From the NCBI GenBank assembly GCA_947568835.1, contig OX387610.1, positions 15,853,001-15,917,000 of the forward strand: a stretch of 64,000 nt of DNA. Reading direction: 5' to 3'. The notes under the pieces are model-generated. The model searched no databases and was not told the DNA's origin. It was given only the letters and a program-made list of their open reading frames with translations. This document shows positions 10,276 to 40,708 of the stretch, piece by piece; position 1 is the first letter of the stretch; each line of letters opens with the position of its first letter. The DNA comes from Protonemura montana. Lineage: Eukaryota; Arthropoda; Insecta; Plecoptera; Nemouridae. Both the position numbers and the translations under genes were made by a program.

Positions 10276-10599
10276 CGGAGATCATTAACTAATACAGAAA
10301 GAATGCCGTTATTCACGAGGGTTGTCACGCGTGTCTTCATCATCGCGGATTGTCCGGCGATACGGAGCCTCGTCGTAACATAAGCATCCGTTATCAATTA
10401 AGTTGATAAGAATTCCGACACAGCGATAGTCCCTGGTTTGCTACTAAATAGAAACTTCCAACTAATCATTGTTTCAGAAATCTTCTGTTTATTTCTGCAG
10501 ACACTTACAGATGAAGAGTGGGCGAGAGGGGCTACGTGCGAAATGAATTGGGCTAAATAATTTGTTATGGAACAGGGTGGCTTAGGAGGGGAGAACCGA

Positions 10600-11215: not shown

Positions 11216-11219
11216 GAGG

Positions 11220-11815: not shown

Positions 11816-11879
11816 TTATTATTATTAATAATAAATTTACAAACGCTTGCAATGCAGCGTTGCATTATTGTATAATGTT

Positions 11880-12025
11880 GTATTATGAACACTACAAACG
11901 TCTCAAAAATTGATGCCCAGTCGGGGACTCAAACCCCGATCTCCACCTGTCGCGGGTGATCTACTTGGACACTACCTGTTTGGGCATCCATTTTTTAGAC
12001 GTTTTTAGTGTTCATAATAATTTAA
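11880..12025 (-). mobile_element. Foldback tRNA-like element (short SINE copy)
   Basis: The two ends are inverted copies: ATTATGAACACTA, CGTCTCAAAAATTGATGCCC on the left, and GGGCATCCATTTTTTAGACG, TAGTGTTCATAATAAT on the right. Between them sits a shortened tRNA-like unit (CGGGGACTCAAACCCCGATC, CACCTGTCGCGGGTG). The whole ~145 bp could fold into one long hairpin. This shows the symmetric flanks of the family most clearly. Confidence 0.75.
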
Positions 12026-12029
12026 TCAC

Positions 12030-12641
12030 ACGGTTTTTGTTACCAAAATCACTCATCACTCATAAAGAAGAAAACTTTGCCCAAGCGTATGTGTTCAATC
12101 ACGTGGGTCCTCCATCCTAAGGAAAGAAACAAATGTGAGAATAATACGGGCAGTTTCCAGTTAGAGGCACGGGTTGCTAAGCCCTGGGGATTTTTGTGCA
12201 ACTTATTGGAGGTTTATTCAGTTGTGACCTGGCCGCCATCTTTCCATTTCAACATGCACTCGTCTGGAGTTTTCTTTCAAAAGCGTCAGGCGCCAAGGGC
12301 ATTAAATAGTGCTAATGGTAATCAAACTCTTGACCATGTTCAGAAGAGAAGTGAATAGAAATACATCAACCAAGCTCATCAACCTCTTGACATTGAGTAT
12401 TAGCAGAGAATTACTGTTGTTGATTGTGTTCCTTCATTAGAAAGTGTTCAGCCATTAGTCTCATTAGCCCTCTTCAGAAAAAGCTTTGCAGTAGCAACAA
12501 GTTTCTGCCCATCCCCTTCAGAATAAGTGACCTTCATGAAGACTCTCATAATATCACATCAACTAACGGACAGCATTTAACCAACGCCGAGGACAAATTG
12601 CTCAACAAAGAAAGACGACAAGATCCAGCGATAAACGCAAG
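12030..12641 (-). other. Probable SMC6 3' untranslated region
   Basis: Directly downstream of the SMC6 stop codon on the minus strand. A minus-strand AATAAA lies at 12213-12218 and could define the transcript end, giving a 3' UTR of roughly 430-450 bases. No coding sequence is supported here. Confidence 0.45.
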
Positions 12642-15600
12642 TTAAAGATTCACTCGCCTGTAAATCGAGACGTCTTTGTCTGTCGCAACCGAGGCCACGT
12701 CCTGAGGCGTAAGGAACACGAACTGGCGTCCGTGCCGTTGCTTGGCGTGCTCCATTAACATGCTCATGATCACCTTGCGGTTCACGTTGTCCTGTTGAAA
12801 TACCACACACAATAAGCTTGGCATCTTCAATGGGAGCCAGGGACATGTGTATCAAGGTATAGGGCATGGTGCAAGCATGGATGTGTACAGCTGGGTTGGC
12901 ATCTTCAATGGGAGCCAGGGACATGTGTGTCAAGGTATAGGGCATGGTGCAAGCATGGATGTGTACAGCTGGGTTGGCATCTTCAATGGGAGCCAGGGAC
13001 ATGTGTGTCAAGGTATAGGGCATGGTGCAAGCATGGATGTGTACAGCTGGGTTGGCATCTTCAATGGGAGTCAGGGACATGTGTGTCAAGGTATAGGGCA
13101 TGCTGCAAGCATGGATGTGTACAGCTGGGTTGGCATCTTCAATGGCAGCCAGGGACATGTGTGTCAAGGTATAGGGCATGGTGCAAGCATGGATGTGTAC
13201 AGCTGGGTTGGCATCTTCAATGGGAGCCAGGGACATGTGTGTCAAGGTATAGGGCATGGTGCAAGCATGGATGTGTACAGCTGGGTTGACATCTTCAATG
13301 GCAGCCAGGGACATGTGTGTCAAGGTATAGGGCATGGTGCAAGCATGGATGTGTACAGCTGGGTTGGCATCTTCAATGGGAGTCAGGGACATGTGTGTCA
13401 AGGTATAGAGCATGGTGCAAGCATGGATGTGTACAGCTGGGTTGACATCTTCAATGGCAGCCAGGGACATGTGTGTCAAGGTATAGGGCATGGTGCAAGC
13501 ATGGATGTGTACAGCTGGGTTGACATCTTCAATGGGAGCCAGGGACATGTGTATTAAGGTATAGGGCATGGTGCAAGCATGGATGTGTACAGCTGGGTTG
13601 GCATCTTCAATGGCAGCCAGGGACATGTGTGTCAAGGTATAGGGCATGGTGCAAGCATGGATGTGTACAGCTGGGTTGGCATCTTCAATGGGAGTCAGGG
13701 ACATGTGTGTCAAGGTATAGAGCATGGTGCAAGCATGGATGTGTACAGCTGGGTTGACATCTTCAATGGCAGCCAGGGACATGTGTGTCAAGGTATAGGG
13801 CATGGTGCAAGCATGGATGTGTACAGCTGGGTTGACATCTTCAATGGGAGCCAGGGACATGTGTATTAAGGTATAGGGCATGGTGCAAGCATGGATGTGT
13901 ACAGCTGGGTTGGCATCTTCAATGGGAGCCAGGGACATGTGTGTCAAGGTATAGGGCATGGTGCAAGCATGGATGTGTACAGCTGGGTTGGCATCTTCAA
14001 TGGGAGCCAGGGACATGTGTGTCAAGGTATAGGACATGGTGCAAGCATGGATGTGTACAGCTGGGTTGGCATCTTCAATGGGAGCCAGGGACATGTGTGT
14101 CAAGGTATAGGGCATGGTGCAAGCATGGATGTGTACAGCTGGGTTGGCATCTTCAATGGGAGTCAGGGACATGTGTGTCAAGGTATAGGGCATGCTGCAA
14201 GCATGGATGTGTACAGCTGGGTTGGCATCTTCAATGGCAGCCAGGGACATGTGTGTCAAGGTATAGGGCATGGTGCAAGCATGGATGTGTACAGCTGGGT
14301 TGGCATCTTCAATGGGAGCCAGGGACATGTGTGTCAAGGTATAGGGCATGGTGCAAGCATGGATGTGTACAGCTGGGTTGACATCTTCAATGGCAGCCAG
14401 GGACATGTGTGTCAAGGTATAGGGCATGGTGCAAGCATGGATGTGTACAGCTGGGTTGGCATCTTCAATGGGAGTCAGGGACATGTGTGTCAAGGTATAG
14501 AGCATGGTGCAAGCATGGATGTGTACAGCTGGGTTGACATCTTCAATGGCAGCCAGGGACATGTGTGTCAAGGTATAGGGCATGGTGCAAGCATGGATGT
14601 GTACAGCTGGGTTGACATCTTCAATGGGAGCCAGGGACATGTGTATTAAGGTATAGGGCATGGTGCAAGCATGGATGTGTACAGCTGGGTTGGCATCTTC
14701 AATGGCAGCCAGGGACATGTGTGTCAAGGTATAGGGCATGGTGCAAGCATGGATGTGTACAGCTGGGTTGGCATCTTCAATGGGAGTCAGGGACATGTGT
14801 GTCAAGGTATAGAGCATGGTGCAAGCATGGATGTGTACAGCTGGGTTGACATCTTCAATGGCAGCCAGGGACATGTGTGTCAAGGTATAGGGCATGGTGC
14901 AAGCATGGATGTGTACAGCTGGGTTGACATCTTCAATGGGAGCCAGGGACATGTGTGTCAAGGTATAGAGCATGGTGCAAGCATGGATGTGTACAGCTGG
15001 GTTGACATCTTCAATGGCAGCCAGGGACATGTGTGTCAAGGTATAGGGCATGGTGCAAGCATGGATGTGTACAGCTGGGTTGGCATCTTCAATGGGAGCC
15101 AGGGACATGTGTGTCAAGGTATAGGGCATGGTGCAAGCATGGATGTGTACAGCTGGGTTGGCATCTTCAATGGGAGCCAGGGACATGTGTGTCAAGGTAT
15201 AGGACATGGTGCAAGCATGGATGTGTACAGCTGGGTTGGCATCTTCAATGGGAGCCAGGGACATGTGTGTCAAGGTATAGGGCATGGTGCAAGCATGGAT
15301 GTGTACAGCTGGGTTGGCATCTTCAATGGGAGTCAGGGACATGTGTGTCAAGGTATAGGGCATGCTGCAAGCATGGATGTGTACAGCTGGGTTGGCATCT
15401 TCAATGGCAGCCAGGGACATGTGTGTCAAGGTATAGGGCATGGTGCAAGCATGGATGTGTACAGCTGGGTTGGCATCTTCAATGGGAGCCAGGGACATGT
15501 GTGTCAAGGTATAGGGCATGGTGCAAGCATGGATGTGTACAGCTGGGTTGACATCTTCAATGGCAGCCAGGGACATGTGTGTCAAGGTATAGGGCATGGT

Positions 15601-18600
15601 GCAAGCATGGATGTGTACAGCTGGGTTGGCATCTTCAATGGGAGTCAGGGACATGTGTGTCAAGGTATAGAGCATGGTGCAAGCATGGATGTGTACAGCT
15701 GGGTTGACATCTTCAATGGCAGCCAGGGACATGTGTGTCAAGGTATAGGGCATGGTGCAAGCATGGATGTGTACAGCTGGGTTGACATCTTCAATGGGAG
15801 CCAGGGACATGTGTATTAAGGTATAGGGCATGGTGCAAGCATGGATGTGTACAGCTGGGTTGGCATCTTCAATGGCAGCCAGGGACATGTGTGTCAAGGT
15901 ATAGGGCATGGTGCAAGCATGGATGTGTACAGCTGGGTTTGCATCTTCAATGGGAGTCAGGGACATGTGTGTCAAGGTATAGAGCATGGTGCAAGCATGG
16001 ATGTGTACAGCTGGGTTGACATCTTCAATGGCAGCCAGGGACATGTGTGTCAAGGTATAGAGCATGGTGCAAGCCTGAACATGCATACCATGAAGACGTC
16101 GAACTCGTCCATGAAGTAGAATGGTAATTCGATGGCATCCCAGAGCGCCATGATGAAGACCACGGTTGAGTAAGACCGCTCTCCCCCGGACAGCGAGTGC
16201 GGGTCTTTGCTCGAGTCACCTTCGCAGCGGTGGCTTGGGACCACCTCCACCGACAGCGTCTTTGCTGCGTGGTCGAAGATCAATTCCCCCTGGCAATGGT
16301 AGCACTTATTAGCTCAGAACTGCTTTCACCGAAGTTAAGCAGCAGTCCGAGTATTGGTACAGAGTATTGAGTCAGGTATTGGATGGGTGACCACTGAACG
16401 GTTTGTCGTGTTGGAAACACCGGTTCTCGTGAGATCACCAAAGTTAAGCAACACTGCGCCAAGTCAGGTATTGGATGGATGCCCACCGAACGGTTTGTCA
16501 AGTTGGAAACAACTATCCTTGTGAAATGATCTGAAACCCTGGAAGTCAAGAGATATTGTCTGAGATCCCTGATGTTCTCACCGTGTACTTGCGTTGTTTG
16601 AGGCGCAGGTGGAAATAGTGAGTGACAACCCACGAGACGAGACGCCGGACATTTTCATATCGACTCGCGCGCTCCTTGATGATCTTGCTCAGCCTCTGTA
16701 AGCAACAGATGAACACGGCTCAAACACAGCTCAAACACGGCTCAAACACGGCTCAAACACGGCTCAAACACAGCTCAAACACGGCTCAAACACGGCTCAA
16801 ACACGGCTCAAACACCGCTCAAACACGGCTCAAACACAGCTCAAACACGGCTCAAACACGGCTCAAACACGGCTCAAACACGGCTCAAACACGGCTCAAA
16901 CACGGCTCAAACACGGCTCAAACACAGCTCAAACACAGCTCAAACACGGCTCAAACACAGCTCAAACACGGCTCAAACACGGCTCAAACACGGCTCAAAC
17001 ACGGCTCAAAGTCAGACTCAAAGTAAGACTCAAAGTCAAAGTCAAATCTGATTTTAATTGTGCAAATATTTGAACACAGTATTTTTTTGATGAGCGAAGC
17101 GAGCGGAGCGAAATCTTTCATTTCACTTAACCCAGAAAACAAATCACAAACCATCTAAAAGATTGATGAAAATAAATAATAATTAATTAAAATTGATATA
17201 AAACTTTGTTTGAGACGGTAGCTGTGTTTATAATAATTAATTATTTGGCGCATTGCAATTGTTTGCAATTTAAATAAGATTTCACAAATTTACGACTTAA
17301 TTTTGTGAATTTTGGCCGTTTTGCTTTAATCTGTGCAATGAATCAGCTTTGTATTTTATCGTCCCCAAATATTGCTACGCTCATCGCGTCTTCATCGTTG
17401 TGAAGCGCTAGTAAACTTATAAGTATAATTCTGAGCACCAGCACAATACCTGAACATAATGCAATAGCAATGCCGAGCAAATGCTGTTGAAAATGTTCTG
17501 CAAATAATGTATGTATTGTAAAATGTTTTACATTCAGGCGCTTAATTTTATAATAGCGTTGCCACTCAGGCTCAAAAACACAAAATTAAACAGAACAAGT
17601 TTTCAAAACAAAGTAAAGCATTATTTAATAACACATTGTTTTTCTAGTATTGATGAATTCTTAGAAAAGAAGGAATGCACGTGTGACCGCATCGACATCC
17701 ATAAACACGCAAACACAACAAATTCACCCAAAACAACCCTAACATTGACCTACACACCGACTCCCTAGACAGGTTTAAAACTCGGCACAAGCAGAGGACA
17801 TCCAGAGGCCATGTTACGAAATAAATAGATTAAATAGACTAATAACTTGACATATTATATTATACTATATTATATCACACTTGTGGAATTCTTATGTATT
17901 CTGTTGTTTAAATTATGGAGTTTTGTGAATTTGTATTTACATTTTTTACTTAATTTTAGTTTTTAGCGTTATGACAATTTTCAACGCTTGTACAAGTAAC
18001 CACTTTTTTTTTTTACGAAAGGGCATGGACCGGTACAGGGGACAAATATAAATAAAAATTTAAATAAAAAATAATAAAAATGATAATGTTGTGGTAAGTA
18101 ACGGACTTGCTCTGGTGGGATTGACTTGTGGTCCTAAAAGGTCCTTTAGGGACCTTTTAGGGATTGACCACAAGTCAAACCTAAGTCAATCCCAATCCTA
18201 AAAGGTCCTTTAGGGACCTTTTAGGACCACAAGTCAATCCCACCAGAGCAAGTCCGTTACTTACCACAACATTATCACACGGCTCTGAACCACTTCACCA
18301 AAATGAAAATACCTTAAGCAGTGCACCGGTGGCGTTGACCTGCCCCTTGACTGAGTCCAGCTTGACCTTGACTTGCTGGTAATCTTGGTAGACTTGAAGA
18401 TAATCTCCTTGATCCTGGACCAAGCTGTTCAATGCAGCCTCCAGACGACGTCGCTCATCGTTCAACACCGACATCGAACTAACAACAAGCAAAGTCAGCC
18501 ATTTTACCATCAGCATCAGTTAAACCGTTGAGTGTGCAGGTTCTAGGTAGAGACAGAACGTTAATGTTAAACCGTTGAGTGTGCAGGTTCTAGGTAGAGA

Positions 18601-21600
18601 CAGAACGTTAATGTTAAACCGTTGAGTGTGTAGGTTCTAGGTAGAGACAGAACGTTAATGTTAAACCGTTGAGTGTGCAGGTTCTAGGTAGAGACTGAAC
18701 GTTAATGTTAAACCGTTGAGTGTGCAGGTTCTAGGTAGAGACAGAATGTCAATGTTAAACCGTTGAGTGTGCAGGTTCAAGGTAGAGACAGAACGTTAAT
18801 GTTAAACCGTTGAGTGTGCAGGTTCTAGGTAGAGACAGAACGTTAATGTTAAACCGTTGAGTGTAGGTTCTAGGTAGAGACAGAACGTTAATGTTAAACC
18901 GTTGAGTGTAGGTTCTAGGTAGAGACAGAACGTTAATGTTAAACCGTTGAGTGCGCAGGTTCTAGGTAGAGACAGAACGTTAATGTTAAACTGTTGAGTG
19001 TGCAGGTTCTAGGTAGAGACAGAACGTTAATGTTAAACCGTTGAGTGTGCAGGTTCTAGGTAGAGACAGAACGTTAATGTTAAACCGTTGAGTGTGCAGG
19101 TTCTAGGTAGAGACAGAACGTTAATGTTAAACCGTTGAGTGTGCAGGTTCTAGGTAGAGACAGAACGTTAATGTTAAACCGTTGAGTGTGCAGGTTCTAG
19201 GTAGAGACAGAACGTTAATGTTAAACCGTTGAGTGTGCAGGTTCTAGGTAGAGACAGAACGTTAATGTTAAACCGTTGAGTGTACAGGTTCTAGGTAGAG
19301 ACAGAACGTTAATGTTAAACTGTTGAGTGTGGAGGTTCAAGGTAGAGACAGAACGTTAATGTTAAACCGTTGAGTGTGCAGGTTCTAGGTAGAGACAGAA
19401 CGTTAATGTTAAACCGTTGAGTGTGCAGGTTCTAGGTAGAGACAGAACGTTAATGTTAAACCGTTGAGTGTGCAGGTTCTAGGTAGAGACAGAACGTTAC
19501 TGTTAAACCGTTGAGTGTGCAGGTTCTAGGTAGAGACAGAATGTCAATGTTAAACCGTTGAGTGTGCAGGTTCAAGGTAGAGACAGAATGTCAATGTTAA
19601 ACCTTTGAGTGTGCAGGTTCAAGGTAGAGACAGAACGTTAATGTTAAACTGTTGAGTGTGCAGGTTCTAGGTAGAGACAGAACGTTAATGTTAGTGCAGG
19701 TTCTAGGTAGAGACAGAACGTTAATGTTAAACTGTTGAGTGTGGAGGTTCAAGGTAGAGACAGAACGTTAATGTTAAACCGTTGAGTGTGCAGGTTCTAG
19801 GTAGAGACAGAACGTTAATGTTAAACCGTTGAGTGTGCAGGTTCAAGGTAGAGACAGAATGTCAATGTTAAACCTTTGAGTGTGCAGGTTCAAGGTAGAG
19901 ACAGAACGTTAATGTTAAACCGTTGAGTGTGCAGGTTCTAGGTAGAGACAGAACGTTAATGTTAGTGCAGGTTCTAGGTAGAGACAGAACGTTAATGTTA
20001 AACCGTTGAGTGTGCAGGTTCTAGGTAGAGACAGAACGTTAATGTTAAACCGTTGAGTGTGCAGGTTCTAGGTAGAGACAGAACGTTAATGTTAAACTGT
20101 TGAGTGTGCAGGTTCTAGGTAGAGACAGAACATTAATGTTAAACCGTTGAGTGTGCAGGTTCTTGGTAGGGACAGAACGTTAATGTTAAACCGTTGAGTG
20201 TGTAGGTTCTAGGTAGAGACAGAACGTTAATGTTAAACCGTTGAGTGTGCAGGTTCTAGGTAGAGACAGAATGTTAATGTTAAACCGTTGAGTGCAGGTT
20301 CTAGGTAGAGACAGAACGTTGATGTTAAACCGTTGAGTGTGCAGGTTCTAGGTAGAGACAGAATGTTAATGTTAAACCGTTGAGTGCAGGTTCTAGGTAG
20401 AGACAGAACGTTAATGTTAAACCGTTGAGTGTGCAGGTTCTAGGTAGAGGCAGAATGTTAATGTTAAACCGTTGAGTGCAGGTTCTAGGTAGAGACAGAA
20501 CGTTAATGTTAAACCGTTGAGTGTGCTGGTTCTAGGTAGAGACAGATAAAATCTCTAAAATCTAAATAAATGTCAACTCAATGCTTTAATGAATCTTGTC
20601 ATTAAGTTTTTTGTTCTATTATCTGTTAGTAGCTATCTGCGTGTTTTGTTCAGTGGCTTCAGTTGCTAATCACTGCCCCCTCGAGTGCTGATTGAAACAA
20701 CATTCACCAGAAATAATGAAAGTACGGCCTCGTACTCACGCGGTGGGCTCCAGTCGCGGCACGATGAGCAGAGCATTCTCCGCGAGTTGCTCCGCCTCCC
20801 GCCTCACGGCATTGGCCGCGTCTTGCGCGACCTTGAGAGCGGTCAGCTGGTCACGCAGACGACCTTCACTGAATTGTTTAGCGGCGGTGGAAGCTGTCAG
20901 ATCTCCGCGGATTCTCTGCATCTCGGCCTGCAGTGAAATTAAACTTCAAGAACTGGAGTGGAATACAAGTCCTGGACCATCCGGTTGCTGGATTCTATAA
21001 AAAACAACTAGTATTTTGATGCAAAAACAAGTAATTATCCTAACATTTTGTAACTTCTGCCCCTAACCATGTTACCAGCTGATTTAACCCTTGATGAACT
21101 AACAGGAACCAGAGTTGCAAAACATTGTGGAAATCATTGCTTTTTACAAAGTATTCAACAACGCAGTTATTTTTTAAATATATTATTTTCTAGAAGAGAG
21201 AAGTTCCAAGCGAAGACTCTGACCAGTGTGAGAGCAAACCTTGCGTAATTAAACATTTTAGTGAATGTTACGTATTTAACGAATTATAAATGCTTTGACT
21301 TCCAACTGTCTCACCCCGGAGGTGACAGAGCTAACCAGTAGTTAGGATGAACTCTTATTAAAATTGCAAACCCTTGCAATGCGCGGGGTATTTTATTATT
21401 AACAACACTATAACCGTCTCAAAAATTGATGCCCAAACGCGGACTCGAACCCCGATCTCCACGTAACCGAGTAACTCGAGATTGACAGGTTGTGACATAA
21501 CGTCACTAGAATCAGAGTGACTGTGAGTATTCACAGCCTCTTGGTTCTACTCCTTGGAGATCCGTCATTCTCATCAAATACACTAAAATCGTCTCAAAAA

Positions 21601-24600
21601 GCCAGTGTCCAAGTAGCTCAATTGGTTAGAGCAACACCCGCGACAGGTGGATATCGGGGTTCGAGTAGCTTAATTGGTTAGAACAACACCCGCGACAGGT
21701 GGAGATCGGGGTCCAAGTAGCTCAATTGGTTAGAGCAACACCCGCGACAGGTGGAGATCGGGGTCCAAGTAGCTCAATTGGTTAGAGCAACACCCGCGAC
21801 TGGTGGAGATCGGGGTCCAAGTAGCTCAATTGGTTAGAGCAACACCCGCGACAGGTGGAGATCGGGGTCCAAGTAGCTCAATTGGTTAGAGCAACACCCG
21901 CGACAGGTGGATATCGGGGTCCAAGTAGCTCAATTGGTTAGAGCAACACCCGCGACAGGTGGATATCGGGGTCCAAGTAGCTCAATTGGTTAGAGCAACA
22001 CCCGCGACAGGTGGAGATCGGGGTCCAAGTAGCTCAATTGGTTAGAGCAACACCCGCGACAGGTGGAGATCGGGGTTCGAGTCCGCGTTTGGGCATCGAT
22101 TTTTGAGACGGTTTTAGTGTTGTTAATGATAAAAAACTAACCAGTGGTTAATTTATAAAACAAAAGGTGGGTGGACACTTGATGATCTTCTGTTCTGTGC
22201 GGGGAGGGGGGAGGGGGGGGGGGGGGGGGGGTTTCTGTCAGTAAATAGTAAAAGCAATATCGGAAGGAATTCTGTCCAACTTATAAATCAAGTTTGAAGA
22301 AAATAAAAGTGTGTATTGTCTGGACTCTGAGTAAATTAGAAAAGCGCATTGACAGGCAAAATTAATATAAAAGGCATTTCGAAAATAATTGGGTGGGTGG
22401 ACGCCGCCCACCCTGAAATTAACCACTGAAGCCAACTCTGCCAGAACGTCAGGCAACCAAGTCTCATTAAGAACTGAAAACCACTCAAATAAGTGCATAA
22501 ACACAAAAAAAAAACACAAAAACCATACACGCAATGCCTAAATCACTTTTGCAATTCACAGTAATATAAAATAAATGACTAAACAAAGACGGATTGTAAA
22601 GATATTCTCACAACTAGCGGTGCTTCAGTTTGACCGAGCTCCTTCAGCTGGTCGCAGAGCTCTCTGGCGGCCATCTTGGCTGCGTCCACCTCGGCACTGG
22701 CAGCATCCAGTCGCTCCTGAGCGGCCTGTTCTGCGTTACCCACAGCAACCAACTCCTCCTCACAAACAACAAGCTCGGCAGCCTGCAAATACAATCACAT
22801 CTCAAATAACCTGGATAGAGCATAGGATCCAGCCAGCTGATCTCAAATAACCTGGATAGAGCATAGGATCCAGCCAGCTGATTTCAAATAACCTGGATAG
22901 AGCATAGGATCCAGCTAGCTGATCTCAAATAACCTGGATAGAGCATAGGATCCAGCCAGCTGATCTCAAATAACCTGGATAGAGCATAGGATCCAGCCAG
23001 CTGATCTCAAATAACCTGGATAGAGCATAGGATCCAGCCAGCTGATCTCAAATAACCTGGATAGAGCATAGGATCCAGCCAGCTGATCTCAAATAACCTA
23101 GATAGAGCATAGGATCCAGCCAGCTGATCTCAAATAACCTAGATAGAGCATAGGATCCAGTCAGTTGATCTCAAATAACCTAGATAGAGCATAGGATCCA
23201 GCCAGCTGATCTCAAATAACCTGGATAGAGCATAGGATCCAGCCAGCTGATCTCAAATAACCTGGATAGAGCATAGGATCCAGCCAGCTGATCTCAAATA
23301 ACCTGGATAGAGCATAGGATCCAGCCAGCTGATCTCAAATAACCTAGATAGAGCATAGGATCCAGCCTGCTGATCTCAAATAACCTGGATAGAGCATAGG
23401 ATCCAGCCAGCTGATCTCAAATAATCTGGATGCATAGGATCTAGCCAGCTGATCTCAAATAACCTGGATAGAGCATAGGATCCAGCCAGCTGATCTCAAA
23501 TAACCTGAATAGAGCATAGGATCCAAACAGCTGATTTCAAAAAACCTGGATAGAGCATAGGATCCAGCCAGCTGATCTCAAATAACCTGGATAGAGCATA
23601 GGATCCAGTCAGCTGATCTCAAATAACCTGGATAGAGCATAGGATCCAGCCAGCTGATCTCAAATAACCTGGATAGAGCATAGGATCCAGTCAGCTGATC
23701 TCAAATAACCTGGATAGAGCATAGGATCCAGCCAGCTGATCTCAAATAACCTAGATAGAGCATAGGATCCAGCCTGCTGATCTCAAATAACCTGGATAGA
23801 GCATAGGATCCAGCCAGCTGATCTCAAATAACCTGCATGCATAGGATCTAGCCAGCTGATCTCAAATAACCTGGATAGAGCATAGGATCCAGCCAGCTGA
23901 TCTCAAATAACCTAGATAGAGCATAGGATCCAGCCTGCTGATCTCAAATAACCTGGATAGAGCATAGGATCCAGCCAGCTGATCTCAAATAATCTGGATG
24001 CATAGGATCTAGCCAGCTGATCTCAAATAACCTGGATAGAGCATAGGATCCAGCCAGCTGATCTCAAATAACCTGAATAGAGCATAGGATCCAACCAGCT
24101 GATTTCAAATAACCTGGATAGAGCATAGGATCCAGCCAGCTGATCTCAAATAACCTGGATAGAGCATAGGATCCAGTCAGCTGATCTCAAATAACCTGGA
24201 TAGAGCATAGGATCCAGCCAGCTGATCTCAAATAACCTGGATAGAGCATAGGATCCAGTCAGCTGATCTCAAATAACCTGGATAGAGCATAGGATCCAGC
24301 CAGCTGATCTCAAATAACCTAGATAGAGCATAGGATCCAGCCTGCTGATCTCAAATAACCTGGATAGAGCATAGGATCCAGCCAGCTGATCTCAAATAAC
24401 CTGCATGCATAGGATCTAGCCAGCTGATCTCAAATAACCTGGATAGAGCATAGGATCCAGCCAGCTGATCTCAAATAACCTGAATAGAGCATAGGATCCA
24501 ACCAGCTGATTTCAAATAACCTGGATAGAGCATAGGATCCAGCCAGCTGATCTCAAATAATCTGGATAGAGCATAGGATCCAGGAAGCTGATCTCAAATA

Positions 24601-27600: not shown

Positions 27601-30600
27601 GCACCTCCTATGCTAGGCCATGATATACCCGTGGTAACATAAGACAGCAGAATTTAGAAGCTCTGTCAGGCGATCTCAGCATCTCCATGGCTACCAAACG
27701 TTAAATCTACCATTGAACCTCCTATGCTAGGCCATGATATACCCGTGGTAACATAAGATAGCAGAATTGAGAAGCTCTGTCAGGTGATCTCAGCATCTCC
27801 ATGGCTACCAAACGTTGAATCTACCATTGAACCTCCTATGCTAGGCCAGGATATACCCGTGGTAACATAGGATAGCAGAATTGAGAAGCTCTGTCAGGTG
27901 ATCTCAGCATCTCCATGGCTACCAAACGTTGAATCTACCATTGAACCTCCTATGCTAGACCATGATATACCCGTGGTAACATAAGATAGCAGAACTGAGA
28001 ATCTTGTTGAGGTCAACAATTGAACCTTCCTAATAAAGATGGCTACAATAAGGGATTTTTAGTAGATATTCAGGGTTGTCTTGTAATTTTTTTTGTGTTA
28101 CAGATACAGAAAGTGGTTTTACGTTGGTGCCTGATTATCAGATTCAATGTCAGGGATCGTCGAGTCACTCACTGTTGCCTGGAATCGACTGTTGATGACA
28201 GTCGGCTTTCTGCGGTTGCCGATCACTTCTGTCATCAGCTTGAACAGCTTCGCCCTGCAAAACAAATACAAACACGTTGCAGTAATTGTCAGAAACCTGT
28301 GAACAACTTTACCTTCTTCTTAGAATTGACTTTGCACAAGCACAGGCATAGCACACAAGGATCTTAAGACTTGGTTATCATATGGGACTGCCCACAATTG
28401 ACATAGCAATAAGCACAAGCATAGCACACAAGGATCTTAAAACTTGGTTATCATAAGGGACTGCACACAATTGACATAGCAATAAGCACAAGCATAGCAC
28501 ACAAGGATCTTAAAACTTGGTTATCATATGGGACTGCACACAATTGACATAGCAATAAGCACAAGCATAGCACTTGGTTATCGTGTCTCTGTGTTATTCT
28601 TATAGGCCATGTTTTTCCAAGCAGTCCAATGTACTAGGTGCTATTGGTTGAACAATTACTCTGTGTTATTCTTATGGGCCATGTTTTTCCAAGCAGTCCA
28701 ATGTACAAGGTGCTAGTGGTTGAACAATGTCTCTGTGTTATTCTTATGGGCCATGTTTTTCCAAGCAGTCCAATGTACTAGGTGCTAGTGGTTGAAAAAT
28801 GTCTCTGTGTTATTCTTATGGGCCATGTTTTTCCAAGCAGTCCAATGTACTAGGTGCTATTGGTTGAACAATGTCTCTGTGTTATTCTTATGGGCCATGT
28901 TTTTCCAAGCAGTCCAATGTACTAGGTGCTAGTGGTTGAACAATGTCTCTGTGTTATTCTTATGGGCCATGTTTTTCCAAGCAGTCCAATGTACTAGGTG
29001 CTAGTGGTTGAACAATGTCTCTGTGTTATTCTTATGGGCCGTGTTTTTCCAAGCAGTCCAATGTACATTACCTTGCACAGGGTCATAATGTCCTAACTAA
29101 CTTTTAAATTCATACCTAAAAAACTACTGGAATTACTTGGGAGTGGTGTAATTTAATTTAAAAAACCCCTTTGATAAAAGTGGGTCAAAGATATACTGCA
29201 GAACAATTGAGCAAGCAACACCGTCTCAATCCATTCAGCCAAATAATTGAGCCAATATTGATAAATTTATTATTTATTTGTGGTGTTTAACGACGCACTG
29301 TTTTGACATCTGGTCATGTGGCACTGGTCTAATGGCGTCGGTGAATGAGAGAGTGATGATGAACCTAACCTAGCCTAGAAGGGAGGAGGGGAAACCCGGT
29401 GCCGGCACGTAGCCTACTCCTGTCGAAGACCAAGGAGACCACCGGCTTAACGTCCCTTCCGAAGGACGGTACAACGCGAACAACAGGATTCCTCCACAAA
29501 TCCATGCTGTCGAGAGGTTGATAAGCAAGGCGAGTGAAGTTGCTGTACTAACTTTCATCCCTCCAACCTCTCTCCCAAACAGAACTGGTCATGTGTATGA
29601 TAGTCACCCATCTAATACCTGACTCAGCGCAGTGTTGCTTAACTTCGGTGATCTTACGAGAACCAGTGTTTCCAACACGCTAAACCGTTTGGTCCTTGAT
29701 GTATTGTGTTTGACTCACCTGTCTTGTGTTGAGTTAACGAGGTACGCCTGCAACATGGCACCGAGCTGCTGTTCTATGGCCGACGCCCAGTTCTCTTGCC
29801 CGCTACGCAGTCGCACGTGTCTGCCAAGAGGTCCGACCGGCGGCCGGGAAAACTCTCTACGATTGACAGCGGCGTCGATACGTTCTTGCAACGGCACCGC
29901 GTACTGGCCGTACAACGACAGCACGCTGCTCGATCGTGACAACGTCTGCTCCAACCAAACAGAACAATATATCTAAGCATTAGCAACTTAGCATTCAAAA
30001 CCCAGTTGAAATAGTTTTTGTTAAAACTAGTGCTAAGTTTACATCAAGTAGACATGAGTCTAAAAATAATCCCAAAAATACTTCATGCATAACAAGCATC
30101 TGCACTTCTAATTCTATTTTCATAGCCTAGTGGTTTTACTCCCTGAAAATCTGTCATTCTCATCAAATACACTATTATCATCTAAAAATTGATGGATGTC
30201 CAAGTAGCTCAATTGGTTAGAGCAACATCCGCGACAGGTGGAGATCGGGGTCCAAGTGGCTCAATTGGTTAGAGCAACATCCGAGACAGGTGGAGATCGG
30301 GGTCCAAGAAGCTCAATTGGTTAGAGCAACACCCGCGACAGGTGGAGATCGGGGTCCAAGTAGCTCAATTAGTTAGAGCAAAACCCGCGACAGGCGGAGA
30401 TCGGGGTCCAAGTAGCTCAATTGGTAAGAGCAACACCCGCGACAGGTGGAGATCGGGGTCCAAGTAGCTCAATTAGTTAGAGCAACACCCGCGACAGGTG
30501 TAGATTGGGGTCCAAGTAGCTCAATTGGTTAGAGCAACACCCGCGACAGGTGGAGATCGGGGTCCAAGTAGCTCAATTGGTTAGAGCAACACCCGCGACA

Positions 30601-33600
30601 GGTGCAGATCGAGGTCCAAGTAGCTCAATTGGTTAGAGCAACACCCGCGACAGGTGGAGATCGGGGTCCAAGTAGCTCAATTGGTTAGAGCAACACCCAC
30701 GACAGGTGGAGATCGGGGTCCAAGTAGCTCAATTGGTTAGAGCTACACCCGCGACAGGTGGAGATCGGGGTCCAAGTAGCTCAATTGGTTAGAGCAACAC
30801 CCACGACAGGTGGAGATCGGGGTCCAAGTAGCTCAATTGGTTAGAGCAACACCCACGACAGGTGGAGATCAGGGTTCAAGTCCTTGTTTGGTCACTAATT
30901 TTCATATGGTTATTAGTGTTCCTTACAAACAAATTGAAAAAAATCGAAACAGGAAGTGACTTACGCTAAGATTTCGCTCGATGTTCTCCACCTTGCGCTT
31001 GACAAGGTTTTGTTCGGATCGCAACGTGTGTATCTTCTCACGCAGCGGCTCCTCGTTGTCCCTCAGCTGAGTGCAGTGAAGCTCGCTCGTCTGATTAGCT
31101 GCCTCAACTTGCGCCAACTGCTCGGCGCAACGTACAGTTCGTTGGCGCAGTTCAGTGCGTCGAACTAGGTAGTCCGGCTCTGTGCTCTGCCAACAGAAAC
31201 ATGCGTGAACATCGACTTAACTACAAAGCAGAAACTTATCATAGCAATAACTTGCCATAGCAATAACTTGACATAGCAGAAACTTATCATAGCAATAACT
31301 TGACATAGCAATAACTTGACATAGCAATAACTTGACATAGCAATAACTTGACATAGCAATAACTTGACATAGCAATAACTTGACATAGCAATAACTTGAC
31401 ATAGCAATAACTTGCCATAGCAATAACTTGACATAGCAGAAACTTATCATAGCAATAACTTGACATAGCAATAACTTGACATAGCAATAACTTGACATAG
31501 CAATAACTTGACATAGCAATAACTTGACATAGCAATAACCTGACAGCAATAACTTGACATAGCAATAACTTGACATAGCAATAACTTGACATAGCAATAA
31601 CTTGACATAGCAATAACCTGACAGCAATAACTTGACATAGCAATAACTTGACATAGCAGAAACTTATCATAGCAATAACTTGACATAGCAATAACTTGAC
31701 ATAGCAATAACTTGACATAGCAATAACTTGACATAGCAATAACTTGACATAGCAATAACCTGACAGCAATAACTTGACATAGCAATAACTTGACATAGCA
31801 ATAACTTGACATAGCAATAACTTGACATAGCAATAACCTGACAGCAATAACTTGACATAGCAATAACTTGACATAGCAATAACTTGACATAGCAATAACT
31901 TGACATAGCAATAACCTGACAGCAATAACTTGACATAGCAATAACTTGACATAGCAATAACTTGACATAGCAATAACTTGACATAGCAATAACCTGACAT
32001 AGCAATAACTTGACATAGCAATAACTTGATATAGTAAAAACTTTGTTTGCTTTTGTTTGCTTTGTTGGTTTTGAAAAAAAAAACACAAAATAGTGTAAAA
32101 TGTACAATGATAGTCACCTGTTCTAGACGCTGTATCTCCTGTATCAGCGCCATCTTGTTTTCCTGCTTGCGTTTCACTTGTTGCATCTGCATGCGCTTAT
32201 CAAGTTGGGCAGCCTGCATCAGCCGCTGTTGCGCTTTGTGTTTGTCACGTGCCTCCTGGAACCTCATCTCCTCCGACTTCAAGCGTTCGCGCAGTTCTGC
32301 CAACCTTTGCTGCAACGACCTGGTCAATGTGTTAATTTTGTTACTTTTACAAGCAAACAATTTATATCCTATCAATATCATTATTATAAAGTAATTTATC
32401 ATAAGTATTATTACTATATTAGTATCATAGTTTGTAGGTATGTTCGTACCACACTAGTATTACCACTATACCATCAGAATTATTATTATCATTATTACTA
32501 TATTAGTATCATAGTTTGTAGGTATGTTCCTACCACACTAGTATTACCACTATACCATCAGAATTATTATTATCATTATAACTATATTAGTATCATAGTT
32601 TGTAGGTATGTTCCTACCACACTAGTATTTCCACTATACCATCAGAATTATTATATCATTATTACTATATAAGTATCATAGTTTGTAGGTATGTTCCTAC
32701 CACACTAGTATTACCACTATACCATCAGAATTATTATTATCATTATTACTATATTAGTATCATAGTTTGTAGGTATGTTCCTACCACACTAGTATTACCA
32801 CTATACCATCAGAATTATTATTATCATTATTATTTTAACTGTATTTTATTAATATTACTTTTATGTACTATCCTGACGATCGCTAACGAGATTAATGGCT
32901 TGTAAATTTTTTTTTATTTAAGCCAATAAAGGAAATCAATCAATCAATTACGAACGAGTTAAAGTTAAGTGGAGTTGAGACGGTTACAGTGTTGATAATA
33001 ATAAAAAAAAAAGGAAGGCCCCTTTAAAATTGATGCCCAAACGGGGCATCGAATCCCGATCTTCACTTGTCGCGGGTGTTGCTCTAACCAATTGAGCTAC
33101 TTGGACACTGGCTTTTTGAGACGATTGTAGTGTATTTGATGAGAATGACGGATCTCCAAGGAGTAGAACCAAGAGGCTGTGAATACTCACAGTCACTCTG
33201 ATTCTAGTGACGCTATATCACGTCACAACCTGTCAATCTCAAGTAACTCTATTTTGACGTTAGACGTTTGGAATTTAAATAATATTTCATCAAGATCTTA
33301 CCTGTGTTGTTCCTTCATCATGTCGTCTTCCATGCCCTGACCGTCGGCCGCCATCTTTAGCTCCTCCTCCTTGCGTGACTCCGCCTCCACCACCGACTCG
33401 GCCGCAACAAGCTCCGCCTCCTTGTCTAGAACCTGCAGGCACAGATCCGGTCGGGATCAGAGGGGAGGGGCTTGTAAATATCATTGAAACTCTATCAGAT
33501 TGTTAGGGATACTAATAACTGCTCAACAAATCGATGCCCACACTGGGACTTTAACCCTCATCTCTACTTGTTTTTAAACAACATAATTTAACTACGTAAA

Positions 33601-36600
33601 CTGTTCGGTGGTAACTCATCCAATACCTGACCCAGCGCAGTGTTGCTTAACTTTCAACCCTCCAACCTCTCTCCCGAACAGAACTGGTCATGTGTATGAT
33701 GGTCACCCATCCAATACCTGACCCAGCGCAGTGTTGCTTAACTTTCATCCCTCCAACCTCTCTCCCGAACAGAACTGGTCATGTGTATGATGGTCACCCA
33801 TCCAATACCTGACCCAGCGCAGTGTTGCTTAACTTTCATCCCTCCAACCTCTCTCCCGAACAGAACTGGTCATGTGTATGATGGTCACCCATCCAATACC
33901 TGACCCAGTGCAGTGTTGCTTAACTTTCATCTCTCCTACCTCTCTCCCGAACAGAACTGGTCATGTGAATGATGGTCACCCATCCAATACCTGACCCAGC
34001 ACAGTGTTGCTTAACTTTCATCCCTCCAACCTCTCTCCCGAACAGAACTGGTCATGTGTATGATGGTCACCCATCCAATACCTGACCCAGCGCAGTGTTG
34101 CTTAACTTTCATCCCCTCAACCTCTCTCCCGAACAGAACTGGTCATGTGTATGATGGTCACCCATCCAATACCTGACCCAGCGCAGTGTTGCTTCTATTT
34201 GTTTTTATTCTAATCTAATGTTGTCTTCTGATTACCTGCGCCCACACAATCTGGTTCTCCAAGTCTTCAATCCTGCGTCTCTGCTCTGGGACCGACTTCA
34301 GTGCCTTGCACCGGGCCTCGAGATTTGATGCCAACTTCTCCTGTTGAGACATCACCACCGACTTCTCATTGAGGGCAGCACTCGCTAAAACCACGCAAGC
34401 ATGGATGTGTACAGCTGGGTTAGCATCTTCAATGGGAGCCAGGGACATGTGTGTCAAGGTATAGGGCATAGTGCAAGCATGGATGTGTACAGCTGGGTTG
34501 GCATCTTCAATGGGAGCCAGGGACATGTGTGTCAAGGTATAGGGCATGGTGCAAGCATGGATGTGTACAGCTGGGTTGACATCTTCAATGGGAGCCAGGG
34601 ACATGTGTGTCAAGGTATAGGGCATGGTGCAAGCATGGATGTGTACAGCTGGGTTGACATCTTCAATGGGAGCCAGGGACATGTGTGTCAAGGTATAGGG
34701 CTTGGTGCAAGCATGGATATGTACAGCTGGGTTGGCATCTTCAATGGGAGCCAGGGACATGTGTGTCAAGGTAAAGGGCATGGTGCAAGCATGGATGTGT
34801 ACAGCTGGGTTGGCATCTTCAATGGGAGCCAGGGACATGTGTGTCGAGGTATAGGGCATGGTCCAAGCATGGATGTGTACAGCTGGGTTGGCATCTTCAA
34901 TGGGAGCCAGGGACATGTGTGGTAAGGTATATGGCATGGTGCAAGCATGGATGTGTACAGCTGGGTTGGCATCTTCAATGGGAGCCAGGGACATGTGTGC
35001 CAAGGTATAGGGGATGGTGCAAGCATGGATGTGTACAGCTGGGTTGGCATCTTCAATGGGAGCCAGGGACATGTGTGTCAAGGTATAGGGCATGGTACAA
35101 GCATGGATGTGTACAGCTGGGTTGGCATCTTCAATGGGAGCCAGGGACATGTGTGTCAAGGTATAGGACATGGTGCAAGCATGGATGTGTACAGCTGGGT
35201 TGGCATCTTCAATGGGAGCCAGGGACATGTGTGTCAAGGTATAGGGCATGGTCCAAGCATGGATGTGTACAGCTGGGTTGGTATCTTCAATGGGAGCCAG
35301 GGACATGTGTGTCAAGGTATAGGGCATGGTGCAAGCATGGATGTGTACAGCTGGGTTGGCATCTTCCATGGGAGCCAGGGATATGTGTGTCAAGGTATAG
35401 GGCATGGTACAAGCATGGACGTTTACAGCTGGGTTGGCATCTTCAATGAGAGCTGGGGACATGCCTGCTTACCTTGAGCTCGAGTTTCTCTTGCCTTCTC
35501 GTGGTCGGAGATCACGAAGTCCATCTGTGTCGCCCTCATGAACAGGTTGTACATGTCCCCAGCGTCGGTGCTCTTCAGGAAGTTTCGGGAGGTGTCCTGG
35601 TTGAGTACCGCCACTGGGTTGTCCACTTGGATCTTGTGCGACTCTAACAGTTGCATTAGATCTATACGCCGAGTGGTCACAATCAAACCTGGCCGTGGAG
35701 AAACCAATTAGCAACAGCAGACAATGCTACTAGTGTTCACTTAGAAAAAAATATGAGGCTATCATTAGTTTTTGTCGTTTTTGTAGTTTGAACCACTCTA
35801 ATGGTCAGAATTGTTTAAAAACATGATATAAAGACGAACAAATTAGCTAGGTTATCCAAGATCAGCTGGCTGGATCCTATGCTCTATCCAGGTTATCCGA
35901 GATCAGCTGGCTGGATCCTATGCTCTATCCTGGTTATTTGAGATCAGCTGACTGGATCCTATGCTCTATCCAGGTTATTTGAGATCAGCTGGCTAGATCC
36001 TATGCTCTATCCAGGTTATTTGAGATCGGCTGGCTGGATCCTATGCTCTATCCAGGTTATTTGAGATCAGCTGGCTGGATCCTATGCTCTATCCAGGTTA
36101 TCCGAGATCAGCTGGCTGGATCCTATGCTCTATCCAGGTTATCCGAGATCAGCTGGCTGGATCCTATCCTCTATCCAGGTTATTTGAGATCAGCAGGCTG
36201 GATCCTATGCTCTATCCAGGTTATTTGAGATTAGCTGGCTGGATCCTATGCTCTATCCAGGTTATTTGAGATCAGCTGGCTGGATCCTATGCTCTATCCA
36301 GGTTATTTGAGATCAGCTGGCAGGATCCTATGCTCTATCTAGGTTATTTGAGTTCAGCTGGCTGGATCCTATCCTCTATCCAGGTTATGTGAGATCAGCT
36401 GGCTGGATCCTATGCTCTATCTAGGTTATGTGAGATCAGCTGGCTGGATCCTATCCTCTATCCAGGTTATTTGAGATCAGCTGGCTGGATCCTATGCTCT
36501 ATACAGGTTATTTGAGATCAGCTGGCTGGATCCTATGCTCTATCTAGGTTATGTGAGATCAGCTGGCTGGATCCTATCCTCTATCCAGGTTATTTGAGAT

Positions 36601-39600
36601 CAGCTGGCTGGATCCTATGCTCTATCCAGGTTATTTGAGATCAGCTGGCTAGAGCCTATGCTCTATCCAGGTTATTTGAGATCAGCTGGCTGGATCCTAT
36701 GCTCTATACAGGTTATTTGAGATCAGCTGGCTAGATCCTAAGTTCTATCCATGTTATTTAAGATATGTGGTCTTCACATACCCGAGGCAGACTTGATTTT
36801 GTAGCCGCCGCCCGCTCCGGTAGCGAGGATGGTTCTCACGACTGTGATTTTGTTGCCGTAAAGTTCGGCCTTGTACGGGTAGAGTCCGTCGTTCTTCAGC
36901 GTCACCTCAACCACGGCGGCCTTTTCACCTTTCTTGACGAAACCTGCACAAAGCAAGAAAAGCATCGACCACCAATGAGTTGAAACAAATGCCATGCAAT
37001 GCAGTCTCAAGACTTGGGCAGATAAAAACTGAGACAGGTAAAAATAATGGGTTTAATTTTTTAATTAAATTGAAGGAATATCTTAATTGAGAGTTTAAAG
37101 TCTGATCTAAATAAGTATCTAAAAAAACACACACCTAATGAGGTCAAAAAAAAGTTCATAAAGAGGAATTAGAGGAATGTTAGAGAGTAACGTAGAGTGA
37201 GAGGAACATTTATGTTAATCTGCCTCATTTTCGACTGACTTCCGTCCCATTCCATCGTGGGCTCAGTCCTCATGCCTTTATTCGGAGAGGAAAGAGAACA
37301 TACTTTCCTGCCACCTGTTGTTTCATGGTTTTAAATGACAAAACTGTTGCCCGGTATTACAAAATTTTTCAAGCTCGAGTCTAGCTTCTTGTTCTGAATT
37401 TTTTAATTTTTGAATAAATCTCAATGAGATTGAAAGCCGCCATTTGGCTGTTGTCCCATTTTAACCTGGAAGTTGAGACAGTTGTGATCCTAAACCTAAA
37501 CAAATTATCTACGTTGATAGCTGCCATTAAACTTGCGCTTCATCACTTTAGATGTGCCAAAATGGTTGGTCTTTGAAGTTAACAAAACCATATTTCTGGC
37601 AATTAAAACTAACTATAGAATAATTTGGCAAATATCATAACTGACATAGCAATAAGCACAAGCATTGCACACAAGGATCTTAAAACTTGGTTATCATATG
37701 GGACTGACACAATTGACCTAGCTATAAGCACATGCATAGCACACAAGGATCTTAAAACTTGGTTCTCATATGGGACTGCACACAATTGACATAGCAATAA
37801 GCACAAGCATAGCACACAAGGATCTTAAAACTTGGTTATCATATGGGACTGACACAATTGACCTAGCTATAAGCACATGCATAGCACACAAGGATCTTAA
37901 AACTTGGTTATCATATGGGACTGCACACAATTGACATAGCAATAAGCACATGCATAGCACACAAGGATCTTAAAACTTGGTTATCATATGGGACTGCACA
38001 CAATTGACATAGCAATAAGCACAAGCATAGCACACAAGGATCTTAAAACTTGGTTCTCATATGGGACTGCACACAATTGACATAGTGATAAGCACATGCA
38101 TAGCACACAAGGATCTTAAAACTTGGTTATCATATGGGACTGTACACAATTGACATAGCAATAAGCACAAGCATAGCACACAAGGATCTTAAAACTTGGT
38201 TATCATATGGGACTGCACACAATTGACATAGCAATAAGTACAAGCATAGCACACAAGGATCTTAAAACTTGGTTATCATATGGGACTGCACACAATTGAA
38301 ATAGCAATAAGCACAAGCATAGCACACAAGGATCTTAAAACTTGGTTATCATATGGGACTGCACACAATTGACAATGTCAGATGATTTGTTTTGGTTTTC
38401 AGAATTACAACTTCAGAACCGCTAGAAAAGAGACTTGTTCACTCACTTTTGAGACTGTTCCCTCGGTTGGTAGCGCTGGCCTTGCCTCCCAGACCGACCA
38501 CGAGACCGAGCAGGACAGCACTCTTGCCACTTCCATTGCGACCCACCACGAAGTTTATCCGCGGGTTGAACGTAACTTCCAGCGCGTCGTGACACATGAA
38601 GTTACGCAGGTACAGTCGCTCCACAATGCCACTGCACGAGCTCTGCAACGGATGGAGATTGTCAGTGACAGAAGCTTTTACTAGGAACACTAATAATCTC
38701 TCATATGGCATCAATAGAATCAGAGTGACTGTGAGTATTCACAGCCTCTTGGTTCTTCTCCTTGGAAATCCATCATTCTTATCAAATACACTAAAATCCT
38801 CTCAAACATAACGGATACCCAAGTAGCTCAATTGGTTAGAGCAACACCTGCGACAGGTGGAGATCGGGGTCCAAGTAGCTCAATTGGTTAGAGCAACACC
38901 CACTACAGCTGGTGATCGGGGTCCAAGTAGCTCAACTGGTTAGAGCAACACCCGCGACAGGTGGAGATCGGGGTGTGAGTCTCATTGAGGTTATTGGTGC
39001 TACTAATATTAAAATAATTTGCACATTTGAAGTTGATAACAGACTTTACAGTAGCGGTTGATGTTTGCGATGACAATGGAAGTCAAGCTCATGCTACTCA
39101 ATTACGCACATTTCAATTTTTATAACTTTGAAAGAATGAGAGGTGTATATATATAAGCAAGGAAGACTGCTCGGTGCTATTGTGGAGAATTTTGAAGAAA
39201 TCTTTAGGAATTAGACGTTTTGACGAGTTGCCTTTGTCGTTGTTAAAGAAGTTATTACAAATTTTTACAAATTTTTCGACAAGTGCACCACGCGACGCCA
39301 GTGTGAATGACTATTTGACTAAAAATAATTATTTGTACACATTTTATTTTTATTGACCTGTTACTATGTGATCAATTATGGGCGCTATATTATGTCAACA
39401 TTTTGTTAAAATATTTTATGTTTACTTATAAAAAAAAAAATCAGTAATTTTATATTTTATTTTATTTTTTGTGGTTCTTTTGTTATCGGAAAATTGTCAG
39501 GACTGCTTGTAACCCTTGATAAAGTAACAGGTACAAGTTACGAAACGTTGGGAAATTCAGTTGTTCTTCACTTAGCATTCAAAACCCAGTTGAAATAGTT

Positions 39601-39886: not shown

Positions 39887-40099
39887 CTCGTAACTCGCCC
39901 TGCAAATAAAACATGTCGACATGGAGAACATGAAACGAAGATCACAAACCCACGCTAAAGTAGCCTAAAGATACATTTATAAACCTTGACCATCATTTAG
40001 AAGATGTTTAGTTGGCAACAGCAGAGGAAGAGAATCAGTAAATGACAACCCAGTTGCCTCTTCAGTGGGTCTCAAACACATTCACAACAAACATCATTA

Positions 40100-40245
40100 T
40101 TAATATTATTATTATCATTATTATTTTAACTGTATTTTATTAATATTACTTTTATGTACTACCCTGACGATCCCTGACAGGATTAATGGCTTGTAAATGT
40201 TTTTTTTATTTTTTATTTAAGCCAAATAAGGAAATCAATCAATCG
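40100..40245 (+). repeat. LINE 3' UTR tail, copy 2
   Basis: Near-identical to 32836-32950 with the tail AAGGAAATCAATCAATCG. It lies upstream of SMC6, in the region where its promoter should be. Confidence 0.7.
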
Positions 40246-40384
40246 ATCTCATTCAATAGGCTGTCATTATTCATCTCAAACTATTTTTACGGTAATTTTC
40301 TTTTCTTATTCCTATTAATGTTGCGAGGGAGTTTCGGTACTAAAACGTCACAACCTGTCAAACTCGAATAACTCCAAATTGACG

Positions 40385-40708
40385 TTGGATTCGTTGCTGT
40401 ATTAGGATGAACTCTTAATTAAATTGCAAACGCTTGCAATGCGAGGGGTATTTTATTATTATTATTTTATTATTGTGGCGTGATATAGCGTCACTAGAAT
40501 CAGATTGACTGTGAGTATTCACAGCCTCTTGGTTCTACTCCTTGGAGAACTGTCATTCTCATCAAATACACTAGAATCTTCTCAAAAAGCCAATGGTTCA
40601 ATGGCTCAATACCCCCTCAATGATAGCTCAATGGTTCAGAGCAACACCCGCGACAGGTGGAGATCGGGGTTCGAGTCCACGTTTGGGCATCAATTTTTGA
40701 GACGGTTA
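40385..40708 (+). mobile_element. tRNA-derived SINE, diverged copy
   Basis: Has the GCAAACGCTTGCAATGCGAGG piece, the GACTGTGAGTATTCACAGCC hairpin flank, a damaged A-box (AGCTCAATGGTTCAGAGC), an intact B-box GGGTTCGAGTCC and GGGCATCAATTTTTGAGACG. It directly precedes the LINE complex. Confidence 0.82.

Follow-up and report, generated by a model that had tools for sequence, protein, structure and literature searches.

Dispersed minisatellite families in the introns of a predicted SMC6 gene of Protonemura montana

Results

SMC6 introns consist largely of tandem-repeat arrays

The stretch of DNA analysed here ("the window") comprises 64,000 nt of the Protonemura montana (Plecoptera; Nemouridae) assembly GCA_947568835.1, contig OX387610.1, and corresponds to C13:15853001-15917000 of the genome searched below. 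It carries an SMC6 gene on the minus strand, running from an ATG at 39886 to a stop at 12642 (Table 1). Splicing is predicted from a splice-constrained sequence model, which gives 19 coding exons and 18 introns, all GT-AG; two boundaries are unsure, namely the exon 9 acceptor (an in-frame alternative lies 24 nt off) and the exon 12 donor (possibly a GC donor). The coding sequence of 3279 nt, including the stop, lies within 27,245 bp and specifies a product of 1092 aa that matches Pfam SMC_N (4.4e-25) and, over residues 50-1088, the SMC6 chain 9lwi_A (E 1.7e-126). The 19-exon model and its two matches bear out an earlier, sequence-only reading of this DNA, according to which the protein is complete and in phase.

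TRF assigns 16,486 of the 23,966 SMC6 intron bases (69%) to arrays, while the number of exon bases overlapped by arrays is 0. The sequence-only reading had reported repeats in every intron it examined and had proposed the TRF run as a check; arrays are indeed present in 17 of the 18 introns, and intron 17 (292 nt), where TRF finds none, coincides in part with a match to Rfam 5S_rRNA (16401-16504). Introns 4, 7, 12, 13 and 18 had each been described as approximately one array, with only ~10-30 unique bases beside the splice sites. As to the first description, introns 4, 12, 13 and 18 are 94-99% array and intron 7 is 86%; the second is accurate for introns 4 and 18, roughly so for 12 and 13, and too strong for intron 7 (74+53 nt).

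Several unit families are common to more than one SMC6 intron: the 41-bp family occurs in introns 3 and 13, the 73-bp family in introns 2, 9 and 12, and the 78-bp family in introns 4 and 18, with orientations that are opposite in some cases. In introns 1, 5, 8 and 14, the 52-bp and 91-bp units are SINE heads, of the tRNA and 5S types, in multiplied form.

Table 1. Coordinates of the SMC6 gene, its intron arrays and the neighbouring features (window positions; array share and unique remainder refer to the whole intron)
Feature	Positions	Strand	Array share; unique remainder	Basis
SMC6 coding part, 19 exons / 18 introns	12642..39886	-		splice-constrained model, Pfam, structure-chain match
Intron 18, 78-bp array, 41.8 copies; donor gap 14 nt, acceptor gap 26 nt	12818..16074		99%; 40 nt	TRF
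Intron 16, 11- and 12-bp arrays; acceptor 16 nt away	16712..17046			TRF
Intron 15, 47-bp array, 43.8 copies	18519..20546		90%; 233 nt	TRF + genome search
Intron 14, 52-bp tandem tRNA-type SINE heads	21607..22076	+		
Intron 13, 41-bp array, 53.7 copies	22799..24987	+	97%; 68 nt (52+16)	TRF + genome search
Intron 12, 73-bp array, 12 copies, 3-unit blocks	25272..26145	+	94%; 57 nt (42+15)	TRF + genome search
Intron 11, 60-bp array; related sequence up to 8 nt from donor	26524..27333		81%; 190 nt	
Intron 10, 114-bp array	27576..28001			TRF + genome search
Intron 9, 73-bp array (orientation opposite to intron 12), then 72-bp array	28324..29066			
Intron 8, 52-bp tandem tRNA-type SINE heads	30198..30881	+		
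Intron 7, 16-bp array, 50.9 copies	31240..32043		86%; 127 nt (74+53)	TRF
Intron 6, 84-bp array	32407..32832			TRF
Intron 5, 91-bp tandem SINE heads, 5S-type by likeness to Rfam-matched heads	33609..34194	-		
Intron 4, 78-bp array, 13.7 copies; donor 9 nt, acceptor 10 nt away	34395..35463		98%; 19 nt	
Intron 3, 41-bp array, orientation opposite to intron 13	35859..36764	-	83%; 187 nt	
Intron 2, 73-bp array	37642..38374	-		
Intron 1, 52-bp tandem SINE heads, 3 copies	38819..38974	+		
Neighbouring gene, predicted intron (5,496 nt), 53/107-bp array	54815..60310	+		
41-bp array downstream in neighbouring gene region	62662..63247	+		

Arrays make up 44% of the window. Outside SMC6 they cover 3.4% of positions 1-12641, 0.8% of 39900-46000 and 62% of 46001-64000. 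A neighbouring gene, whose exon set matches no Pfam family, has a predicted intron in which a 53/107-bp array (54820-60287) leaves just 5 nt free beside the donor and 23 nt beside the acceptor. Elsewhere in the window, two 148-bp arrays abut in opposite orientation at 46055-47816, forming a palindrome of arrays, and similar sequence can be seen by eye near 8150-8290. Also by eye, a ~600-base segment is present in two copies within 600-2200 (~610-1190 and ~1610-2190), and an open frame of 894 aa at 40766-43450 resembles a non-LTR retrotransposon reverse transcriptase. A THAP-domain exon lies at 45298-45531 (Pfam 3.5e-09).

The same units recur at many places in the genome

The assembly (258 Mb, 34 contigs) was searched for seven unit families: the 41-, 47-, 60-, 73-, 78- and 114-bp families of SMC6 and the 53-bp family of the neighbouring gene. 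The six SMC6 families account for 10 of the 17 array-bearing introns, the 84-bp (intron 6), 16-bp (intron 7), 11-bp (intron 16) and 72-bp (intron 9) units being left out. Search patterns were stretches of 32 to 37 bases. With at most one mismatch, the genome contains 20,433 matches to the 41-bp family, 10,281 to the 47-bp, 5,832 to the 53-bp, 3,193 to the 73-bp and 1,477 to the 78-bp family; with at most two, there are 4,901 matches to the 60-bp and 6,736 to the 114-bp family. Each of the seven families hits both strands, and the reversed-pattern control returned 0 matches for each. The genomic places listed for these families are tandem clusters, and multiplying matches by unit length gives, arithmetically, ~3.0 Mb for the seven families, or ~1.2% of the assembly. 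The 52-bp tRNA-type and 91-bp 5S-type SINE-head units, found in four SMC6 introns, likewise recur in sampled loci.

The finding that all seven families are dispersed on both strands indicates that most SMC6 arrays were not born in their own introns. The sequence-only reading had suggested that the introns expanded from small ones, in which a native unit underwent duplication while the splice signals on either side stayed fixed; with between 1,477 and 20,433 matches on both strands, the six SMC6 families do not behave in this way. Since their units recur thousands of times in the genome, the filling of the SMC6 introns looks like the invasion of a region by spreading repeats, with nothing particular to SMC6. 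An assembly artefact is conceivable in that long arrays are hard to assemble, but the units vary, the exons are in frame, the window sequence read contains no N and members of the families turn up at many loci; we regard this explanation as scarcely credible.

Arrays concentrate toward the ends of contig C1

The SMC6 window lies ~1.9 Mb from the end of the 17.83-Mb contig C13. The distribution of the families can be followed best on C1 (33.1 Mb), where exact matches are fully listed for the 78-, 53-, 60- and 114-bp families. These form 25 clusters (7, 4, 7 and 7, respectively), 24 of which are no more than 3 Mb from an end; the remaining one is at 9.77 Mb. Among the matches listed for the 41-bp family on C1 (to 31.3 Mb), six clusters lie below 1 Mb, others at 4.95 and 12.4 Mb, and the rest at 29.4-31.3 Mb. 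On C2 (29.8 Mb), exact matches to the 53-bp family form three clusters, one at 1.36 Mb and two in the interior (6.4 and 17.8 Mb). Exact matches are listed first, and so older arrays in contig interiors are underrepresented in these distributions.

Array content was also sampled in 19 stretches of 10 kb. Between 4 and 24 Mb of C1, all six samples contain 0% array, while all seven from outer C1 (0.04, 0.5, 1.5, 30, 31.5, 32.5 and 33.1 Mb) contain 3-76%. No array is present in the samples at 10 Mb of C2, 8 Mb of C12 and 8 Mb of C13, or in the 10 kb next to the window; C13 was thus seen at three places (the window, the adjoining 10 kb and 8 Mb). Exceptions to the clustering at ends are found at 8 Mb of C5 (20.9 Mb long; 10.7% array) and at 28 Mb of C1 (5%). 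The array territory may be tied to chromosome position, and the window together with a few loci suggests that arrays may prefer introns over intergenic DNA.

TTAGG is the arthropod telomere repeat. It has 9,672 overlapping matches in the genome; among the matches listed, none lies within the initial 916 kb of C1, so that a contig end need not be a chromosome end. Many TTAGG tracts are internal on C1 (0.92-29.46 Mb). Near the C1 ends there are long arrays of short period: 22 bp x 284 in locus L031 (1-6256) and 10 bp x 592 in locus L043 (28-5963).

Other genes carry arrays, two of them apparently private and ending at a splice site

Exons adjoining arrays in outer C1 include those of an ALIX-like gene (Pfam PF13949, 1.5e-26) and of a KIND-domain, Spire-like gene (7.9e-11). 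Other sampled exons match Chitin_bind_4 (1.3e-16) and a Psq-type HTH (5.4e-16), both of which, like the TTAGG arrays, point to an arthropod genome; matches of an IF-2B-like exon and to L27 are below the Pfam cut-off, and the L043 exon set (CUB-like by guess) matches no Pfam family.

In the ALIX-like gene, the gaps that separate a 41-bp array from the donor and the acceptor measure 17 and 35 nt, respectively. Upstream of it, a 44-bp array runs into a 3' splice acceptor, its last copy there matching the repeat, by reading, at 22 of 24 bases. The 44-bp unit has 310 genome matches, on one strand only; all 100 of the matches listed fall at C1:236951-241342, and the array is still continuing at C1:249913. 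A 40-bp array in the Spire-like gene likewise ends at the acceptor, and its unit has 17 matches, on one strand, all at C1:924273-924945. As far as the matches listed show, each of these two arrays is private to one place.

The ALIX- and Spire-like arrays fit birth in situ from splice-site sequence. It is to these two genes that the duplication in place envisaged for SMC6 by the sequence-only reading does apply well. Extended to every array—each starting as a tandem duplication of sequence beside the splice sites of the intron that holds it and growing from there, as in avian sequence stuttering or amphioxus mirages—local birth would also suit SMC6 intron 11, where related sequence reaches 8 nt from the donor. 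However, all seven window families searched are dispersed on both strands, and families are common to different introns in opposite orientations; for the six SMC6 families searched, local birth is refuted unless the SMC6 introns are themselves the source. As a general account we consider it rather unlikely. Taken together, the private ALIX- and Spire-like units and the dispersed window families indicate that birth in place and dispersal both occur in this genome.

For comparison, 20 adjacent exon pairs were modelled in interior genes, of which 15 introns were kept (donor score >3) and 5 dropped. The kept introns have a median length of 697 nt, against a median of 239 nt for the SMC6 unique remainder (Mann-Whitney p=0.0025) and 1,090 nt for total SMC6 intron length (Mann-Whitney p=0.019), in a set that is small and selected and that includes one intron (locus L040) whose 57-bp array is possibly coding sequence. 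The codon model that picked the interior exons had SMC6 as its training set, and so small exons may be missed. GC3 offers no useful contrast (SMC6 0.68, interior 0.71, distal 0.77; the same selection bias applies).

Placement, junctions and local growth of the arrays

Array position within the unique remainder does not depart from uniform (17 introns, KS p=0.66). It had been suggested that selection trims repeats only at splice signals; given the uniform placement, such trimming is not needed, and we rejected it. Arrays come close to both splice sites because the remainders are short. In intron 4 (19 nt) and in the neighbouring-gene intron (28 nt) they look too short for a functional intron on their own, such that either part of the original intron has presumably been lost, or the array supplies the signals for splicing (e.g., a branch point inside the repeats).

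Remainders this short for an ancestral intron are also what introner-like gain would leave, in which array insertion made the intron at 54815-60310 and intron 4, with splice sites provided by the array or the target. On the other hand, neither target-site duplication nor inverted termini were found, the same families occur in both orientations relative to transcription, and the unit phase at the splice site varies between introns; we hold such an origin to be highly doubtful.

Two aspects of the junctions were examined in 47 arrays. Firstly, no target-site duplication was detected, direct repeats scoring 3.91 as compared with 3.87 in mismatched pairs. Secondly, inverted repeats in the flanks show no excess over chance (3.94 versus 3.97). 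For the non-SINE families, the lack of excess direct or inverted repeats speaks against a cut-and-paste element. Insertion as an introner or transposon was rejected, the junction test being at chance.

The arrays could have been carried by a transposable element that contains a tandem repeat (e.g., a Helitron-like element or a multi-head SINE). This is true in part: the arrays of 52- and 91-bp units consist of SINE heads (tRNA-type and 5S-type, respectively) multiplied within the element, and at least three 91-bp arrays have both flanks alike (window 10643-10921, Spire locus 3691-3878 and locus L048 7337-7615), which suggests that multi-headed SINEs may move as such, or arise more than once with identical breakpoints. 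In the other families, flanks differ and duplications are no higher than chance, making carriage by an element an unlikely explanation of the arrays as a whole.

Most array edges are sharp, and a margin of decayed repeat separating the array from the splice site was rejected as a general feature: 6 of 43 sides gave p<=0.03 (60 shuffles each, uncorrected), these being the acceptor sides of introns 3, 6 and 7 and the donor sides of introns 10, 11 and 16.

Local growth of the SMC6 arrays by multi-unit blocks, after arrival, is visible. In intron 18, identity is 99.6% at a lag of 29 units versus 96.6% at one unit, and one variant is found in this intron only, four times; intron 12 has a period of 3 units. 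Among ten 41-bp arrays (191 units; seven arrays from C1, three from the window), units of one array are on average nearly as far apart (0.058) as units of different arrays (0.063), for ungapped units with at most 10 mismatches from the consensus. Structure by array is small but real (Fst-like value 0.103, against a shuffle mean of 0.048 and maximum of 0.067).

Discussion

We think it probable that SMC6 lies in a territory where minisatellite families have spread, with arrays arriving by DNA-level copying and then growing locally. The observations behind this reading are the dispersal of the units, their clustering at the ends of C1, flanks that are not shared and lack target-site duplications, both orientations, block growth and the same pattern in other genes; the families, we infer, spread by a copying mechanism.

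The proposed course of events is as follows. Minisatellite families would have spread through the territory that holds SMC6, members forming arrays at many places. Introns would receive multi-unit blocks by DNA-level copying, with no transposase, either from reintegrated extrachromosomal circles or through break repair templated on an array elsewhere. Once in place, an array may grow by duplication of multi-unit blocks. Selection would keep exons free of arrays, and as a result the introns of genes in the territory would fill up; where an intron has little unique sequence, the array would come to span nearly everything between the two splice sites. Other arrays of the territory may instead be born in place, from splice-site sequence.

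A more speculative reading, which we consider possible but doubtful, joins these two origins: arrays that are mobile without being transposons would be born within introns near chromosome ends, by stuttering at splice sites, and subsequently copied between introns across chromosomes, with reintegrated circles or break repair as the route. Birth could then be represented by the private arrays of the ALIX- and Spire-like genes, and spreading by the families with units of 41 to 114 bp. If true, genes in such territories would acquire interchangeable, array-filled introns.

With the same families present in introns of different genes, the route by which minisatellites spread becomes testable, with birth, copying and local growth each readable within one genome. 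The locus also raises the question of how an essential gene is spliced when the interval between donor and acceptor is nearly all repeat, and whether branch points lie inside the repeats. A literature search, with subscription papers outside its scope, found no arthropod report of array-filled introns.

Human subtelomeric VNTR loci mostly have their own units, unlike the families common to several loci here. Human VNTRs are described as enriched near chromosome ends and linked to double-strand breaks (cited in PMC10097659), and the concentration of tandem repeats toward contig ends on C1 is similar. The TCAST satellites of Tribolium are reported as dispersed in gene regions, with more in introns than expected, and circles have been proposed for them (PMC5844308). 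Like these, the units studied here occur at many loci in gene regions; unlike the TCAST repeats, which are mostly single (PMC5844308), they form arrays of up to ~100 units that nearly fill introns. The kl-3 and kl-5 genes of the Drosophila Y have gigantic, megabase introns described as nearly all simple satellite (PMC6508621), whereas SMC6 introns are of kilobase scale and minisatellite. Introners, as characterized in PMC9860276, are repeat families common to the introns of many genes, with TIRs or target duplications in part of the families; in the present arrays we found neither inverted termini nor target duplications, nor splice sites carried along.

Two further systems concern arrays at intron boundaries. 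In amphioxus, "mirages" are minisatellite-like tandem repeats at intron-exon boundaries that cross into the exon (PMC3087553). The private ALIX- and Spire-like arrays also lie at a boundary but, in contrast to the description of mirages (PMC3087553), stop at the acceptor, and SMC6 arrays cover 0 exon bases and belong to dispersed families. On its published description, the nearest match in pattern is the "sequence stuttering" of avian dot chromosomes, in which tandem-repeat introns accompany intact coding exons (Hron et al. 2026, PMC12954441). Stuttering repeats measure tens to hundreds of bases, occupy one chromosomal territory and in some cases include the splice site; the authors of that study conclude that they arose locally and make population length variation part of the definition (PMC12954441). 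SMC6 is similar in that its introns are 69% tandem repeat with 0 exon bases affected, as are the ALIX- and Spire-like arrays, which reach the splice site and fit a local origin. Local origin is also where the likeness ends, since all seven window families are dispersed, on several contigs and both strands. What is new relative to stuttering as described (PMC12954441), local as that is in origin, is that a small number of shared families fill the introns of genes unrelated to one another.
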